Notes under the pieces: model-generated
What the model was told of the DNA's origin: nothing
The model's input: the letters and a program-made list of their open reading frames with translations, nothing else
The model's database searches: none
Translations under genes and position numbers: made by a program
NCBI GenBank assembly: GCA_023476565.1
Contig: JAMCVZ010000002.1
Location: 1-45,680 of the forward strand
DNA from: Nitrospirota bacterium
Lineage (GTDB): Bacteria > Nitrospirota > Thermodesulfovibrionia > Thermodesulfovibrionales > Dissulfurispiraceae
Length of the DNA stretch: 45,680 nt
Direction: 5' to 3'
In this document: in pieces, positions 3,145 through 9,858 of the stretch
How the letters are laid out: every line of letters starts with the position of its first letter
Numbering within the stretch: position 1 is the first letter of the stretch

Positions 3145-3681
3145 TTAAATTGTAGCAGAGGTGAGGATTTTAAAAAACTCGGCCAGCATATCGCTTCTGA
3201 GGTCCATGACTTCCTCGAAGCGTTTGACAAACGCCCGGTACGGCTTTGCAGGGCCTTCTTCTATATGTTTAAGCAGGGCATTGCAGAAGTGCCAGTTGCA
3301 CCGGAAAGGTCTTACTGACCGCTCTATGGTGCAGCCGCGCCCGGATATGAACTGGCAGGGGTCGGTATCAAGCACGCCCTCTTTGTAGCGCGGCGGCCCG
3401 GCGCCGAGACTGAATATATATATCAGGTCCTCGTAATCATAATAGCCGTGCTTGTTGATGCAGCATACGTTCTCGCAGTACGGGCATACTACTGCCGTAT
3501 TCCGCTGGAAGAACATATCGACTTCATCAATGCCGTACTTTACTATCCGCGCCTTATCTTTAACCGGAGCGAGGTCCTCCCGGTGCTCCTCGAAGAACCG
3601 CCCCATAAGGCATATGGCCGCATTCCACCTCTCCCTGTCGTGCCATGAGAGATCGTAATTCAGCAAATTTAACAGCATCAT
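3145..3681 (-). CDS. YkgJ-type cysteine-cluster protein
   Basis: A 178-residue protein with a CPYCENVCC cluster (about residues 70-78) followed by more spaced cysteines, including GRGCTIERSVRPFRC and HFC. This pattern is typical of the YkgJ/UPF0153 zinc- or iron-binding family, whose reaction is unknown. The start is ATG 3681, directly followed by a second ATG at 3678. It lies 86 nt upstream of the PatZ-like gene on the same strand and diverges from the small zinc-ribbon gene starting at 3742. A second cysteine-cluster gene lies just beyond that on the plus strand, so three Cys-rich genes cluster here. No membrane segment is visible. Confidence 0.7.
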   Translation of the reverse strand: MMLLNLLNYDLSWHDRERWNAAICLMGRFFEEHREDLAPVKDKARIVKYGIDEVDMFFQRNTAVVCPYCENVCCINKHGYYDYEDLIYIFSLGAGPPRYKEGVLDTDPCQFISGRGCTIERSVRPFRCNWHFCNALLKHIEEGPAKPYRAFVKRFEEVMDLRSDMLAEFFKILTSATI

Positions 3682-3741
3682 GTAAGTATGTTATATTAAA
3701 GCATTCTGTTTCGCCAATATCCTGAAGAACGGGACCTGCTC

Positions 3742-3909
3742 ATGAAATGCAAGGTTTGTAAGGGAGAGATCAAGCTGATCGTCGGTTGAAAGTCGGTAAC
3801 GCTGTGCTGCAAGGAATGCGGCAGGAATTTCAGGCTTTCCGATTACCTCGACGACATCGATAACGATATGTGGAACCAGATATCGCAAAGGCCCAGTAAT
3901 CGCGTGTAA
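3742..3909 (+). CDS. small dual-CxxC zinc-ribbon protein with in-frame UGA (possible selenoprotein)
   Basis: A 55-codon frame from ATG 3742 to TAA 3907-3909, interrupted by one TGA at 3787-3789 (codon 16). Codons 1-15 read MKCKVCKGEIKLIVG. After the TGA come KSVTLCCKECGRNF and an acidic helix, RLSDYLDDIDNDMW. Two CxxC pairs (C3/C6 and C23/C26) bracket the TGA exactly as in one zinc ribbon, so both halves clearly belong to one gene. UGA could be read as selenocysteine, could be a nonsense mutation (for example Gly GGA to TGA), or could be a sequencing error. I recall a family of small dual-CxxC proteins with selenocysteine members, but cannot align it here. No selenocysteine genes are in the window. 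The ribosome-binding site is weak. Confidence 0.6.
3805..3823 (+). other. hairpin just downstream of the in-frame UGA (SECIS-like position)
   Basis: TGCTGC and GCGGCA can form a six-pair stem (one G-U) closing a seven-base loop, AAGGAAT. It begins 15 nt after the TGA at 3787-3789, inside the coding sequence, where bacterial SECIS elements lie. It lacks a convincing match to the E. coli loop and bulged U, and it overlaps the second CxxC codons, so chance complementarity is quite possible. Confidence 0.2.
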
Positions 3910-3938
3910 TCAGCCCTCTATGCAGGGCGGGAGAAAAG

Positions 3939-4547
3939 ATGGACAGGCATTTACAAAGGATAGGGGAGATATTCAGGGCGATTGACAGCATGTACACTGC
4001 TGCCCTGAATCATTACAGCTTCAGTTGCGAAGGGTGTTCCGATAATTGCTGCGTGACAAGATTCCAACACCATACGATCATAGAGGAATTATATCTTGCC
4101 GAAGGCGTCAAGAGACTTGATGAGGATAAAAAGAAAGCCGTTGCAGGCCGTGCAGAGGAAGTGGTGAAAATCCATAATTCATCCCCTGACGATATGCGGG
4201 TGATGTGCCCGCTTAATGAGGATGGATTGTGTATTCTCTATGAACACCGCCCCATGATATGCAGAATCCACGGCGTGCCGTACGAACTGCATAAAAGGGA
4301 CATGTCCATCGAATACGGCGTCGGGTGCCACCGGTTCATGGCCGAGAAGGTGACTGAGGGATTGAAATATTTCCCTCTGAACAGGACCATGTTCTACATT
4401 GAGCTGGCGAAGCTTGAAAAAGAGGTCAGGGGGCATCTGAATTTTACGGGAGCCTACGGCAAGACCACCGCTGAGATGGTTCTGAGTATCTTGAGGAAAG
4501 ATCAAGGTACGCTTGAAAGAGCTTGCCGTAAAGGGCGAATAATTTAA
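3939..4547 (+). CDS. YkgJ-like cysteine-cluster protein
   Basis: A 202-residue protein with the cluster CEGCSDNCC near residue 30, then CPLNEDGLCILYEHRPMIC and a further Cys in GVGCHRF. The layout (CxxCxxxCC, then Cys residues around a YEHRPxxCRxHG motif) is that of YkgJ/UPF0153-type metal-binding proteins of unknown function. It starts 29 nt after the small zinc-ribbon gene and probably shares its transcript. Its TAA at 4545-4547 is in the same frame as the next gene, so no in-frame start exists for that gene before 4578. The function is not known; a role in metal handling or Fe-S protein maturation would be a guess. Confidence 0.7.
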   Translation: MDRHLQRIGEIFRAIDSMYTAALNHYSFSCEGCSDNCCVTRFQHHTIIEELYLAEGVKRLDEDKKKAVAGRAEEVVKIHNSSPDDMRVMCPLNEDGLCILYEHRPMICRIHGVPYELHKRDMSIEYGVGCHRFMAEKVTEGLKYFPLNRTMFYIELAKLEKEVRGHLNFTGAYGKTTAEMVLSILRKDQGTLERACRKGRII

Positions 4548-4577
4548 AGTGAAGCGCTATGCTTTCAGGAGGCGGCC

Positions 4578-5099
4578 ATTTCCCATATCATAATCGACGG
4601 GTATAATGTCATCGGAATACACCACCGGGACATGGAAAAAACGCGGGACGAATTTACAAGCCTCCTGGTGAGCTATAAAAAGATAAAGGCCCACGATATA
4701 ACCGTTGTCTTTGACGGCCACAAAAACGGCACGGGAACGGAGAATACAGAGGTGCGCGGCGGGATAAAGGTCATCTACTCACGTCTCGGGGAATGCGCCG
4801 ACGAGGTCATCAAGAGGATCATTTCAAAAGAAAGAAGGGAATGGATCGTGGTGAGCTCGGACAGGCATATCGTCAACCATGCATGGGCCGTAAGCTCGAT
4901 CCCGGTCCCATCCGGCAGATTTTTTGAAGCCGTTTCAAAGCAGGTACGGACAGGGGCGCATCCGGAAAACCCTGAACCGGCAGGAGAAGACGATAAAGAT
5001 GCTTGTGATGCCGATGCTTTCAAAAGCCACCGGAAAGGGACCCCCCGCCAGCTCTCCAAAAAAGAGCGGGCCGTCAGAAAGGCTTTGAGCAAGCTTTAA
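4578..5099 (+). CDS. yacP: YacP/NYN-domain ribonuclease-like protein, probable AUU start
   Basis: The conserved YacP/NYN (PIN-like nuclease) opening, IIIDGYNVIG, is encoded from 4587, upstream of the first ATG in frame (4632). Between the preceding stop (4545) and 4632 there is no ATG, GTG or TTG in frame. A strong AGGAGG at 4567-4572 sits 5 nt before ATT at 4578, so an AUU start is the best reading and gives about 173 residues. Acidic residues in VVFDGH and the SSDRH motif fit the metal-dependent nuclease fold. The last 50 residues are charged and probably flexible. YacP relatives act in RNA turnover or maturation. Starting at 4632 would delete the first catalytic Asp. Confidence 0.75.
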   Translation: MSHIIIDGYNVIGIHHRDMEKTRDEFTSLLVSYKKIKAHDITVVFDGHKNGTGTENTEVRGGIKVIYSRLGECADEVIKRIISKERREWIVVSSDRHIVNHAWAVSSIPVPSGRFFEAVSKQVRTGAHPENPEPAGEDDKDACDADAFKSHRKGTPRQLSKKERAVRKALSKL

Positions 5100-5190
5100 G
5101 CATTAAATTTTTATTTATCAATTGGGTATGTATATTTTTCTATAAATTCTTTATAATTTAAGGAGTAACAATTCGTAAAGATGAGCCGTT

Positions 5191-5280
5191 ATGGAAGTTA
5201 TTACCGCTGAGGCTGAAGATTTTATGGATTTTATTATCAATGATTATAAGGAGCGGACTGCACTTGAGAAAAGAGTTTAA
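5191..5280 (+). CDS. very small ORF, possibly the front half of a frameshifted peptide
   Basis: A 29-codon frame from ATG 5191 beginning MEVITAEAEDFMDF, in the 216-nt gap between the NYN gene and the PAP2 gene. After its TAA, another frame continues with RLIKHLTFLESENTV and ends in the PAP2 start region, so the two may be halves of one broken short helical protein. There is an AAGGAG at 5159-5164 but it is far from this ATG. The rest of the gap is AT-rich. I see no family match and regard this as uncertain. Confidence 0.25.
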   Translation: MEVITAEAEDFMDFIINDYKERTALEKRV

Positions 5281-5315
5281 AGTCAGGCTCATCAAGCATT
5301 TAACTTTCCTGGAAA

Positions 5316-6221
5316 GTGAAAATACTGTTTAGACCCGCAGACACTCTTACCATCGCCTTCAGCCTTTTTCTTTTTGCCCTCACCCTGTTTTTTTCAGGAA
5401 AGATCCCGCACGCGGGCATGCTTCTGCTCATCTATGCGTCAGTGGTCCTCTTCCAGTCGATGCTTGTTCCTTTAAGCAGGATGAACTCCTTCCTCAGCCT
5501 GACGCGCGACATCATCTTTCCGGTTATCAGTGTCCTCGTGATCTTCGACAGCCTCGGACCGGTCGTACACAGCGTAAATCCGCAGGATATGGACTATCTC
5601 CTCATAAGGCTTGATTACCTGATCTTCGGGGGTTACCCCACCATCTTTATGGAAAAGGTGATGCACCCGCTGCTGACTGATATCCTGCAACTCGCGTATT
5701 CAACCTACTACTTTCTGCCTGTCGCCCTGGGGATCGTTTTAAAGTTCGGCGATAAAAAGGCGGATTTTGAAAAAGCGCTGTTCCTTATACTCCTCTGCTT
5801 TTATCTCTCCTATGTCGGATACATCCTTGTGCCCGCCCTCGGTCCGAGGTACGCGATGGAGCATCTCCAGGAAAAAGAGCTGGGGGGCTTCCTGGTGTCA
5901 AAACCGGTGCAGGACCTGCTGAACCTGCTCGAAGGCGTCAAAAGGGACGCATTTCCGAGCGGGCATACGGGCATTGCCCTTACGGTGCTGTTTCTATCTT
6001 ACCGGTACGCCCGAAATCTTTTCCGGTGGATAGCGATACCGGTGCTCTTATTGATTGTCGCAACCGTTTATTGCAGGTACCATTATGCTGTCGATGTCAT
6101 CGGAGGGGTTCTTCTGACAGTTGTAACAATAGCTTCGGGTGAGTTATATTATAAGTTCCGGGAGAGAAAAAATGGACATCCCTTATTCCAGGGCAAAGGA
6201 TGGTATAATTATCGAAGTTAA
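5316..6221 (+). CDS. PAP2-family membrane phosphatase
   Basis: A 301-residue integral membrane protein with about six hydrophobic segments, of the PAP2 lipid phosphatase/inositolphosphotransferase type. The second and third PAP2 motifs are visible: FPSGHTG (about residue 215) and CRYHYAVDVIGG (about 248-259), which supply the catalytic His-Ser and His-Asp residues. The first motif is weak (GPRYAME). The substrate is not predictable; lipid phosphates such as undecaprenyl or phosphatidyl compounds are usual. It starts at GTG 5316 and overlaps the next gene by about 50 nt, suggesting translational coupling at the head of a long plus-strand cluster. Confidence 0.8.
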   Translation: MKILFRPADTLTIAFSLFLFALTLFFSGKIPHAGMLLLIYASVVLFQSMLVPLSRMNSFLSLTRDIIFPVISVLVIFDSLGPVVHSVNPQDMDYLLIRLDYLIFGGYPTIFMEKVMHPLLTDILQLAYSTYYFLPVALGIVLKFGDKKADFEKALFLILLCFYLSYVGYILVPALGPRYAMEHLQEKELGGFLVSKPVQDLLNLLEGVKRDAFPSGHTGIALTVLFLSYRYARNLFRWIAIPVLLLIVATVYCRYHYAVDVIGGVLLTVVTIASGELYYKFRERKNGHPLFQGKGWYNYRS

Positions 6222-6435
6222 AGTCATCCCCCGCTCATCGAAAAGAGAGATCGCCGGAGTTGTTGATAATATTGTAAAAGTCAAGCTCACGGCGCCCCCG
6301 GTGGAAGGCGCCGCCAATGAACAGCTTATAGAGCTCCTGGCTGAAAAGTTCGGCGTAAAGAAGAGCAGCGTCGTTATCATAAAAGGCGGGTCGTCCAAAT
6401 TGAAAACCATAAAAATCACAGGAGTTGAACTTTGA
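6172..6435 (+). CDS. yggU: DUF167/YggU family protein
   Basis: An 87-residue protein of the YggU/UPF0235 family (structure known, function unknown). Family hallmarks are visible: VKVIPRSSKREI, VKVKLTAPPVEGAANEQ and the glycine-rich VIIKGGSSKLKTIKI. The start is ATG 6172, preceded by GGGAGAG. An upstream start at 6139 would lie deeper inside the PAP2 gene and adds a non-conserved tail. It overlaps PAP2 at its front and YicC at its end. In many bacteria it sits beside wall or growth genes, but no mechanism is established. Confidence 0.85.
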   Translation: MDIPYSRAKDGIIIEVKVIPRSSKREIAGVVDNIVKVKLTAPPVEGAANEQLIELLAEKFGVKKSSVVIIKGGSSKLKTIKITGVEL

Positions 6436-7280
6436 TACAGAGCATGACAGGGTATGGGGCATCAGAGGTGGACGGACTCAAGGTCGAAGTGCGTTCTTTG
6501 AACCATAAGTATATTGATATTTCGGTCAGGATGCCGTCCGTACTGATGGAGCACGAAATACCCATCAGGAATATAGTTAAAGAAAAGTTTGCACGGGGGA
6601 AATTGGATGTCACCGTGTCCCTGTCCGAAAAGCGGCAGTTGAAAGTCCGTGTAAACAAGGAGCTCGCTCAAGGGATTTACGATACGCTCGCGGACCTCCA
6701 GAAGGAACTGTCCCTGCCCGGCTCGCTGGACATCGACTTTTTCTCGCAGTACCGGGAGCTTATAATGACCGAAGAGCCGGAATACAGCGCCGAGGCCCTA
6801 TACAACGCCCTCAGGGACGCCGTCTCCCGCGTTGAGACGATGAGGAAGAGCGAGGGGGAAATCCTCATGAAAGAGCTGAAGCTCCACGCCGCAAAGCTGG
6901 AGGAGCTGCGTGCAGAGGTAGAGCGCTTGTCAAAAGGCATGGCCCAGCAGTATAAAGAGGCGCTTTCCCGGAAAGTGGCCGAACTTATCTCGGATGCCCT
7001 TTTTGACGAGACCCGGCTTGCGCAGGAAGTGGCGCTGCTGGCCCAGAGAAGCGATATCACTGAAGAGCTGGCAAGACTCGGAAGCCACATTCAGCAGCTC
7101 TATTCCTTCCTGTCGGACGGTAATGCTATCGGGAGAAAGCTCGATTTTCTTATGCAGGAGCTGCACAGAGAGGCAAACACGATAACGTCAAAAGTGGATG
7201 ATGTAAAGATTATAAACCTGGCAATCGGGATGAAGACCGAGATAGAAAAGCTCAGGGAGCAGGTCCAGAATATCCAGTAA
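6432..7280 (+). CDS. yicC: YicC family endoribonuclease
   Basis: A 282-residue protein opening MIQSMTGYG and ending with the helical domain that contains [15 protein letters not shown] and [16 protein letters not shown], the hallmark of YicC. E. coli YicC is reported to be an endoribonuclease involved in small-RNA decay. The start is TTG 6432, overlapping the previous stop as TTGA, which fits the conserved beginning of the family better than any later start. It precedes remA and gmk, a common bacterial order (yicC-remA-gmk-rpoZ-coaBC), so the whole string is probably one operon. Confidence 0.9.
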
Positions 7281-7320
7281 AAACCGATTAACCGGCAGCA
7301 GGAGGTCAGCGGGAACAGCA

Positions 7321-7596
7321 ATGAAAGGATCCCTTATACACATAGGATTCGGCAATGTTATTTACGCCCCCCGGGTAGTGGCCATAGTCAACCCCGGGTC
7401 ATCTCCGATCAAGAAATTAAAGGATGAGGCCAAAGAGAACGGCAAGCTCATCGACGCTACCGAGGGGAGAAAAACCCGTTCGATAATAATAACCGACAGC
7501 GACCACGTTATCCTGTCCGCCATCCAGGTGGAAACCATAGCGCAGAGGGTTGCCGGGTTAAAAGAGAGCGGGGATCTCGCGCATGAGGCGGAATAG
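7321..7596 (+). CDS. remA: RemA/DUF370 family DNA-binding regulator
   Basis: A 91-residue RemA-like protein with a [15 protein letters not shown] front and the signature [18 protein letters not shown]. In Bacillus, RemA activates biofilm matrix genes as a ring-forming DNA-binding protein. In Gram-negative genomes the homologue usually sits between yicC and gmk with no known target. The start ATG 7321 follows a 40-nt gap with AGGAGG at 7301-7306, rather far upstream. The end overlaps gmk by 14 nt, so the two are translationally linked. Confidence 0.85.
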
Positions 7597-8203
7597 GGGC
7601 AACCTGTTTGTAATATCAGCCCCGTCGGGCGCCGGAAAGACCACCCTCTGCGCTATGCTCTGCGAGACGTTCCCGAATGTCAGGCACTCTGTATCGTATA
7701 CGACCAGGGCGCCGAGGCCGGGAGAAACAAACGACGTGCACTACACCTTTGTATACGCGGATGAATTCCGCACAATGATCGGCAAGGGCGAATTCATCGA
7801 GTGGGCCGAGGTGCACGGCAATTTCTACGGGACCTCGCGGAAGCGCATCGAGGAAATGATGCATGCGGGACTGGATGTTATCCTGGATATCGATGTCCAG
7901 GGCGCGAAACAGATGAGGGAAAAGGTCCCCGACAGCACATTCGTCTTTATCCTGCCCCCTTCTATGGATGTACTCAGGGAAAGGCTTACCGGCAGGATGA
8001 GCGACTCCGATGAGGTGATACGGAGAAGGCTGAAAAACGCCGGGGACGAGATCAGGGAGTATAAAAATTACAATTATGTTATAGTAAACGATACCCTTGA
8101 AGCTGCCCTGAAAGAACTCATATCGATAATCATTGCCGAAAGGGTCAAAATTTCAAAAGTAGACCGGGATTGGATAGAGAGAAACTTTTTAAAGGAGGAA
8201 TAA
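7583..8203 (+). CDS. gmk: guanylate kinase
   Basis: A 206-residue enzyme converting GMP and ATP to GDP and ADP in the cytoplasm. The P-loop APSGAGKTT lies at residues 13-21, followed by the GMP-binding [11 protein letters not shown] and the [15 protein letters not shown] segment, all typical. The length matches the family. It overlaps remA and ends 4 nt before rpoZ, whose start follows an AGGAGG. The pairing with rpoZ is the common spoT-region type of order, though no spoT is seen here. Confidence 0.95.
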
Positions 8204-8207
8204 AATC

Positions 8208-8600
8208 ATGGATATAATATCGCTTCCCATCGAGTATGACAAAAAGAAGATAGATAGCAGATACAGGCTTGTTGTCATAGCTTCACAGAGGGCCAGGGAG
8301 CTTTCCCTGGGAACCAGCCCGAAGATCCAGACAAAGGCGAAAAAGGTGACCACCACCTCGCTCCTGGAAACCATCACCGACAAAATAGAGTTTCTCACCG
8401 GCGCTGATGCGCTCGTCGCAAAAGAGAAATCCGAGAGGATCGATTACAAGAAACTGATCGAGGAAAAGAGGAGACCTATCGAAGACCTGTCGGAACTGGA
8501 GAAGGACCTCAAGGTATACCTCCATGAAAAGGGAGCTCCTGAGAAGGCTCTGGAGGAGCTGTTCAGCGAGAGCGAGGAAACCGAAGAAAGCGAAGAGTAA
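8208..8600 (+). CDS. rpoZ: RNA polymerase omega subunit, C-terminally extended
   Basis: A 130-residue protein. The N-terminal half shows the omega pattern IDSRYRLVVIASQRARELS, which wraps the beta-prime C terminus and helps polymerase assembly. Typical omegas have 70-90 residues. Here about 50 more follow, acidic and probably helical (EDLSELEKDLKVYLHE, ending in a Glu-rich tail). The start ATG 8208 follows AAAGGAGGA. Position between gmk and coaBC supports the call. What the tail does is unknown. Confidence 0.85.
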   Translation: MDIISLPIEYDKKKIDSRYRLVVIASQRARELSLGTSPKIQTKAKKVTTTSLLETITDKIEFLTGADALVAKEKSERIDYKKLIEEKRRPIEDLSELEKDLKVYLHEKGAPEKALEELFSESEETEESEE

Positions 8601-8633
8601 TCGCCATGTCCTCTATTCTTTCCAAATGGGGGG

Positions 8634-8670
8634 CCCCGGAAAATTTCTCAAAGAAAATTTCTCCGGGAAT
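8634..8670 (+). other. hairpin in the leader of coaBC
   Basis: CCCGGA and TCCGGG flank an imperfect AT-rich stem in the 76-nt stretch between the rpoZ stop and the proposed coaBC start. It lies just before the GTG and could affect translation of coaBC, or it could be part of the coding sequence if the ATG at 8626 is the start. There is no T-run, so it is not an obvious terminator. Confidence 0.3.
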
Positions 8671-8676
8671 ATAACG

Positions 8677-9858
8677 GTGCTTAAAGGCAAGTCGATACTT
8701 TTAGGTATAACAGGAAGTGTAGCCGCTTACAAATCCATCGAGCTTATAAAGAGATTACGAGAAGAAGAGGCCTCGGTCAGGGTTATTATGACCGGGGCCT
8801 CAAAGCGTTTTATTACGCCCCTTTCCATAGAACTGGCGGCGGGTGACAGGGTTTATTCCGATATGTTCGAAACCCCCCTTTCCCACATAAGCCTGCCGGC
8901 GGATTCCGACCTTTTTGTTATCGCACCCGCAACAGCGAATATCATAGGCAAATACGCTAACGGCATTGCCGACGACCTCCTCAGCACAGCGTTGCTGGCG
9001 TACAACGGCACGGTCATTATCGCACCTGCCATGAACTGGCGGATGTACGAGAACCGCGCGTTCCAGAAGGGCCTGAACTACCTTTCGTCCATCGGGGTAA
9101 AGACGGTCGGCCCTGAACAGGGGAACCTCGCCTGCGGCGAGGAGGGAGTGGGCAGAATGGCCGATGTCGAAAGGATTATGGAGTCGATAATAACCGCCCT
9201 TACAAAACAGGACCTTGCCGGAGAGCAGGTCCTCGTTACCGCGGGCCCGACGAGGGAATACATAGACCCCATACGCTACCTATCCAACCGGTCGTCAGGC
9301 AAGATGGGCTGCGCCCTCGCAAAAATAGCCGGGCGCAGGGGAGCGGAAGTAACGCTTATCTGCGGTCCCCTGTCTGTTGCGCCTCCCGATAACATCGATA
9401 ATGTCATAACCGTAGAGACCGCCGACAGTATGTATGCGGCGGTGATGGAAAACCTTCCGATGTCTTCCATATTCATAATGTCCGCCGCGGTTGCGGATTT
9501 CATGCCTGTCGAAACAAAAGAGAGCAAGATCGAAAAAAAGGATAAACTGCAACTGAACCTTGTAAAGACCAGGGATATCCTTGAGTCGGTCGGCAGGCTT
9601 AAGAACAAGCCCTTTACCGTGGGGTTTGCCGCTGAAACGGGCTACAGGCCCGACAGGGCGCGAAAAAAGCTCCTCGGCAAGGATATAGATATGATTGTCT
9701 TTAACGATGTGTCCCAAAAAGACGCGGGCTTCGATACGGACACCAATGAGGTCGTCATTATAGACAGGGACAGGGAAAAAAAGCTCCCCCTGATGTCGAA
9801 AAAAGATGTTTCCATGGCTATATTTGACAGGATCCTCGAATTAAAAGACAATAGATAA
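8677..9858 (+). CDS. coaBC: bifunctional phosphopantothenoylcysteine decarboxylase / synthetase
   Basis: It makes 4-phosphopantetheine in coenzyme A synthesis in two steps: ligation of cysteine to phosphopantothenate (CoaB) and decarboxylation (CoaC). About 393 residues from GTG 8677. The CoaC half begins KSILLGITGSVAAYKS and contains the PAMNWRMYEN active-site motif. The CoaB half carries TAGPTREYIDPIR, SNRSSGKMG, the SAAVADF motif and KTRDIL. The open frame continues upstream into rpoZ; ATG 8626 is an alternative start, but the family begins at about the GTG. It closes the remA-gmk-rpoZ-coaBC string. Confidence 0.93.
   Translation: MLKGKSILLGITGSVAAYKSIELIKRLREEEASVRVIMTGASKRFITPLSIELAAGDRVYSDMFETPLSHISLPADSDLFVIAPATANIIGKYANGIADDLLSTALLAYNGTVIIAPAMNWRMYENRAFQKGLNYLSSIGVKTVGPEQGNLACGEEGVGRMADVERIMESIITALTKQDLAGEQVLVTAGPTREYIDPIRYLSNRSSGKMGCALAKIAGRRGAEVTLICGPLSVAPPDNIDNVITVETADSMYAAVMENLPMSSIFIMSAAVADFMPVETKESKIEKKDKLQLNLVKTRDILESVGRLKNKPFTVGFAAETGYRPDRARKKLLGKDIDMIVFNDVSQKDAGFDTDTNEVVIIDRDREKKLPLMSKKDVSMAIFDRILELKDNR

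Follow-up and report, generated by a model that had tools for sequence, protein, structure and literature searches.

A small dual-CxxC gene in a Nitrospirota genome is very probably a selenoprotein gene of the known NF041197 / OS_HP3 family

UGA can encode selenocysteine (Sec) when a SECIS element follows it, and in FdhA and SelD, two classic bacterial selenoproteins, the codon is followed by a hairpin that lies within the gene. The closest described relative of the gene treated here is a protein family, NCBIfam NF041197 (CxxC_Se_CxxC; "dual CXXC motif small (seleno)protein"), which corresponds to the entry "Dual CXXC motif small protein (hypothetical protein OS_HP3)" in a 2026 review (PMC13188914). 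That review credits OS_HP3 to Zhang and Gladyshev 2007. The protein also appears in PMC9312934 and is named in PMC12013277, and no function for OS_HP3 / NF041197 is given in the available text of these three sources.

The window analyzed here is a stretch of 45,680 nucleotides from a Nitrospirota bacterium. An earlier note, made from its letters alone, had described a dual-CxxC gene of 55 codons in a single frame interrupted by one TGA, and had proposed it as a selenoprotein with a new Sec site. Translation confirmed the gene as described (MKCKVCKGEIKLIVGUKSVTLCCKECGRNFRLSDYLDDIDNDMWNQISQRPSNRV*, with TGA read as U), and its features are collected in Table 1. The novelty did not hold, since the TGA sits at the known site of NF041197 / OS_HP3, and the list of known Sec sites is therefore not extended. 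With Cys at residue 16, the protein scored 54.7 bits against NF041197 (cut-off, 40), covering profile positions 1 to 53 of 53, whereas with X at that residue it scored 46.2 bits, a difference of 8.5 bits in favor of Cys. The full-length match, the two CxxC pairs, the Sec site aligned to the TGA, the existence of Cys forms elsewhere and the length of ∼53 to 55 residues are all shared with the family. Thus, as judged from its sequence, the protein is a member of a named family whose Sec site was already known.

The differences observed are not essential ones. The motif given for OS_HP3 in the review is RxU, whereas it is VGU in this protein and xGU in most of its Nitrospirota relatives, and residue 52, a Cys in most members, is Ser here. 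As for FdhA and SelD, they resemble the present gene in having the UGA and the downstream hairpin in the gene, and both kinds of selenoprotein gene occur in the same genome; unlike the NF041197 member, however, they have other folds and known activities. What the present analysis adds to the description of the family is modest, namely, its distribution and its locus context in Nitrospirota.

Table 1. Features in and around the putative selenoprotein gene (positions in the window; neighbor conservation refers to clustering across 45 loci)
Feature	Position	Strand	Remarks
Divergent Cys-rich ORF, no confident family	3145..3681	-	Upstream; kept in 11/45 loci
Possible sigma-70-like promoter, TTAACA-17-TATATT	3669..3697	+	Consensus scan, 10/12 positions; weak
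Putative selenoprotein gene	3742..3909	+	55 codons plus TAA, ATG start; NF041197 / OS_HP3
First CxxC (C3, C6)	3748..3759	+	Translation; alignment
In-frame TGA, codon 16, predicted selenocysteine	3787..3789	+	Sole TGA in frame; between the two CxxC pairs
Predicted bacterial SECIS hairpin	3806..3822	+	Stem GCTGCA/TGCGGC (3806-3811 with 3817-3822), loop AGGAA; RNAalifold consensus
Second CxxC (C23, C26)	3808..3819	+	Overlaps SECIS stem
CxxCxxCC (PF03692) putative zinc/iron-chelating protein	3939..4547	+	Next downstream; Pfam 23.8 bits, cut-off 23; kept in 10/45 loci
YacP-like NYN-domain protein	4569..5099	+	PF05991, E 1.4e-21; same strand downstream in 17/45 loci

Among 40 aligned sequences, C6, C23 and C26 were invariant and C3 was nearly so. 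The other invariant or near-invariant residues of this alignment were Y35, E38 (Asp in this protein), I39, D40, W44, R50 and R54. In the candidate promoter, a TG precedes the second hexamer, and the number of promoter-like sites found around the gene in a consensus scan of the region was not above that found in shuffled sequences.

Matches at an E value of ≤0.01 were obtained in 45 of the 60 genomes of the order (the genome of origin included), and the 46 matches found in these 45 genomes contained, without exception, exactly one internal TGA. The TGA fell on codon 16, with no gap in the alignment, at all of the 45 loci examined, that is, the window plus 44 order-level relatives. In the phylum sample the family was present in 152 of 396 genomes, mostly with one TGA, and the scan of named genomes placed it in Nitrospirota metagenome-assembled genomes (MAGs), those of Thermodesulfovibrionales among them; all these counts overstate the number of events, given that the genomes are related and not independent. 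Six full-length members lacking an internal stop carried Cys at codon 16 in every case (encoded four times by TGT and twice by TGC), three of them from a single genus, so that they are not independent either, and a seventh Cys form was found in a Thermodesulfovibrio MAG (L130). The earlier note had suggested that Cys or Sec at this position in homologues would speak for selenocysteine, and Gly or Glu for mutation. No residue other than Sec or Cys occupied it among the aligned homologues examined, which favors selenocysteine. A lone R counted at residue 16 came from a contig-end fragment (L105) whose register is off by one in that count, and its TGA is correctly placed. A Bacteroidetes match (L136) was excluded because its alignment was partial, and a search of IMG/VR rendered one weak partial match. 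One genome contained, in addition to the usual copy, a second one that is divergent (26% identity) and carries its TGA at the corresponding site, VIGUARV (L086:6001-6150; G020:C157).

A six-pair hairpin starting 15 nt past the TGA had also been claimed, and it was recovered as the conserved core of a local fold of seven pairs, which starts at 3805, 15 nt past the TGA, and includes a possible extra U-A pair (3805/3823). RNAalifold yielded one consensus hairpin for 45 sequences; Rfam gave no SECIS match at positions 3700 to 3950. Since the hairpin overlaps the conserved Cys codons, it was compared with a synonymous-codon null, consisting of 1000 randomizations in which each protein and the codon usage of each locus were kept. 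None of the 1000 matched the observed values of consensus energy, mean energy, intact stems or wobble C/G counts. All five pairs tested were intact in 36 of the 45 loci compared with 7.9 expected, the mean hairpin energy was -9.9 kcal/mol compared with -4.8 under randomization, and 16 of 21 non-Met loop codons ended in G compared with 6.1 expected. Changes on both sides of the stem were found at two of the six base pairs in 43 sequences (GC to UA, CG or UG, and CG to UA). The covariation score for these sequences exceeded those of all 500 shuffles, but related sequences may beat such shuffles without any structure, and the codon test is therefore the main evidence for the hairpin. Among the Cys forms, six were folded (the contig-end fragment L105 was excluded from these hairpin counts); their hairpin was weaker on average than that of the others (-4.3 versus -10.0 kcal/mol), and a tested pair was lost in five of the six. 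On this comparative evidence, the hairpin is under selection at the RNA level.

The codons that follow the TGA were also conserved as protein. In comparisons of the gene with four relatives, codons 17 to 54 showed dN values of 0.14 to 0.22, well below the dS values of 0.60 to 1.28. On this comparison, the part of the gene downstream of the TGA is under purifying selection and thus does not behave like a pseudogene.

The exchange between Sec and Cys at codon 16, the selection on the hairpin, the purifying selection past the TGA and the presence of other selenoprotein genes in the genome (see below) strongly support the claim of selenocysteine. On these grounds, the product is very probably a selenoprotein of 55 residues that belongs to NF041197 / OS_HP3, with the UGA decoded as Sec by means of a SECIS located inside the gene. 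In the proposed mechanism, the hairpin, lying within the coding sequence, would recruit SelB with Sec-tRNA, and the ribosome would insert selenocysteine at the UGA, while scarcity of selenium would lead to termination after 15 residues. ORF calling with table 11 cuts the gene at codon 16, yet this is very probably a real selenoprotein gene, kept across the order.

A structure model of moderate confidence built with the 40 aligned sequences (pLDDT, 72.5; pTM, 0.46) showed short strands and, after them, a helix at the C terminus, a predicted fold that is compatible with a small zinc ribbon. A structure search of the PDB returned no significant match, the top one being Thermus ZifS (E value, 0.16), and a sequence search of the PDB returned nothing informative on function. 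Trm112, the zinc domain of HypA and ZifS resemble the protein in their short CxxC pairs and in a similar small predicted fold, whereas sequence similarity to them lies under every cut-off. Membership in Trm112 or HypA was accordingly rejected (12.7 bits against a cut-off of 77 and 13.4 against 125; Trm112p, 9.9 against 22), and we know of no Sec site in any of these three proteins.

What the protein may do can be proposed with less assurance than how its UGA would be read. The four Cys residues might form a small zinc-ribbon-like fold in which Sec occupies the turn that separates one CxxC pair from the other, and Sec, as a redox-active selenol, might attack a disulfide, a peroxide or a metal or metalloid substrate and then be resolved by a Cys. 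Such a selenol on a ribbon-like fold, proposed from the model, the conserved residues and the neighboring genes, is our preferred reading of the function, but a tentative one that we would not call probable. Somewhat less likely is that Sec acts not as a redox catalyst but as a metal ligand or a metal-delivery residue, perhaps together with the neighboring CxxCxxCC protein. This role would agree with the four Cys at ribbon-like spacing plus Sec, with the putative zinc/iron-chelating gene directly downstream and with the subthreshold sequence match to HypA, a nickel chaperone that contains a zinc ribbon. However, the neighborhood is kept in only a minority of the loci, the similarity to HypA is far under the cut-off, and Sec is mostly redox-active in the well-studied bacterial families. 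A more speculative version, which we consider improbable, is a selenol-gated ribbon in which Sec would form part of a metal site or switch it, sensing redox conditions or carrying a metal or metalloid with the CxxCxxCC neighbor, and in which the stop after residue 15 would be a selenium-dependent off state. Together, the Sec and Cys forms make up a compact set with a clear SECIS, which should be useful for work on the function of NF041197.

Further downstream, the window contains at 4569 to 9858 a run formed by yacP, PAP2, yggU, yicC, remA, gmk, rpoZ and coaBC, which is conserved downstream of the gene at roughly one locus in three. The linkage to yacP/yicC-remA-gmk-rpoZ-coaBC was discarded as a functional clue, as it has the appearance of general housekeeping linkage.

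A check of the genome for selA, selB, selC and selD, which the earlier note had proposed, gave a divided answer. On the positive side, SelA was intact (614 bits) and SelD was present (355.5 bits), with its UGA in the motif CAGU. Two formate dehydrogenases contained a UGA at CARVUH and CARLUH, each followed by a hairpin; VUH/LUH is the classic Sec site of this enzyme. Upstream of selD, a DsrE-like ORF (L040:328-678; PF02635, E value of 3.9e-12 when the TGA is read as Cys) had an in-frame TGA in VDIUTGCMKTRG with a hairpin after it, and is probably a further small selenoprotein gene. On the negative side, a frameshift in a stretch of ten C's (G000:C47 near 56,040; L035, about 6034-6050) divides selB into two overlapping frames, a base error, a recent mutation and slippage being the candidate causes, and tRNA-Sec (selC) was not found in the 73-contig assembly either with the Rfam model or with the tRNA-Sec of the sister genome as the query, the best Rfam matches being tRNA-Ser. 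Clear tRNA-Sec genes, scoring at least 65 bits, were present in 49 of the 60 genomes searched; the raw Rfam tally of 60/60 was unusable because the 14 control genomes were all positive as well. Tracing the DNA that flanks selC in the sister genome did not reveal a gap in this assembly; its sole match starts 1.5 kb from the beginning of the query and lies 3.6 kb inside contig C38.

These two defects are probably faults of the assembly, the frameshift being a spurious indel in a homopolymer and selC lying in a piece that is missing. The absence of selC had been named beforehand as evidence against selenocysteine, and nominally selC is absent; given the rest of the evidence, we judge an assembly gap to be the likelier explanation. 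Since selB is frameshifted and selC was not found in the assembly, decoding of the UGA in this very strain is something that we infer from sequence.

For this strain, the main rival is a recent and real loss of Sec decoding, by which the gene would be a selenoprotein gene by descent, now dead, with selB broken, selC lost and the UGA turned into a stop. Such a loss would account for the frameshift at the C10 run and for the missing tRNA-Sec. Nevertheless, the genome still has at least four other UGA genes of selenoprotein type (SelD, the two formate dehydrogenases and the DsrE-like ORF), both halves of selB are well conserved, with 85% and 78% identity to the intact SelB of the sister genome, and a C10 run is a typical spot for a false indel, in an assembly that is 96% complete and divided into 73 contigs. 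We therefore regard this loss as very unlikely.

The two readings that deny the gene any selenoprotein descent fare far worse than selenocysteine. The earlier note's own alternatives, a Gly (GGA) to TGA nonsense mutation or a base error, would make this an ordinary zinc-ribbon gene. They are refuted for the family, since dozens of separate genomes have the TGA at the aligned position, and they retain practically no probability. Such events do occur, and selB provides at least one homopolymer frameshift in this very assembly, but the TGA is found at every order-level locus examined, in separate assemblies, the remaining homologues carry Cys rather than Gly at the codon, and purifying selection extends past it. 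Reassignment of UGA to an ordinary amino acid in this genome, of the kind known from codes 4 and 25, would also have the in-frame UGA read through, but it is just as hard to credit with UGA at one conserved codon accompanied by a SECIS hairpin and Cys replacements, with neighborhood genes that are intact families under table 11, and with the UGA of SelD and FdhA at known Sec sites.

Within the order, co-occurrence of the gene with the Sec machinery is uninformative, as SelB exceeded the cut-off in 56 of the 60 genomes. Among the six genomes with Cys forms, SelB above the cut-off was absent from three, one of which had SelB fragments only, and present in the other three; loss of Sec and loss of the machinery are thus not tightly coupled in this group. 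The fragmented selB of the Cys-form relative G261 (G261:C97:8709-9711) looks like an ongoing loss of Sec decoding. Finally, TIGR01591 (formate dehydrogenase alpha) has two more matches in the genome of origin, G000:C47:72606-73559 and G000:C18:30667-31107, each with one internal TGA and a score below the family cut-off; they are possibly additional selenoproteins.
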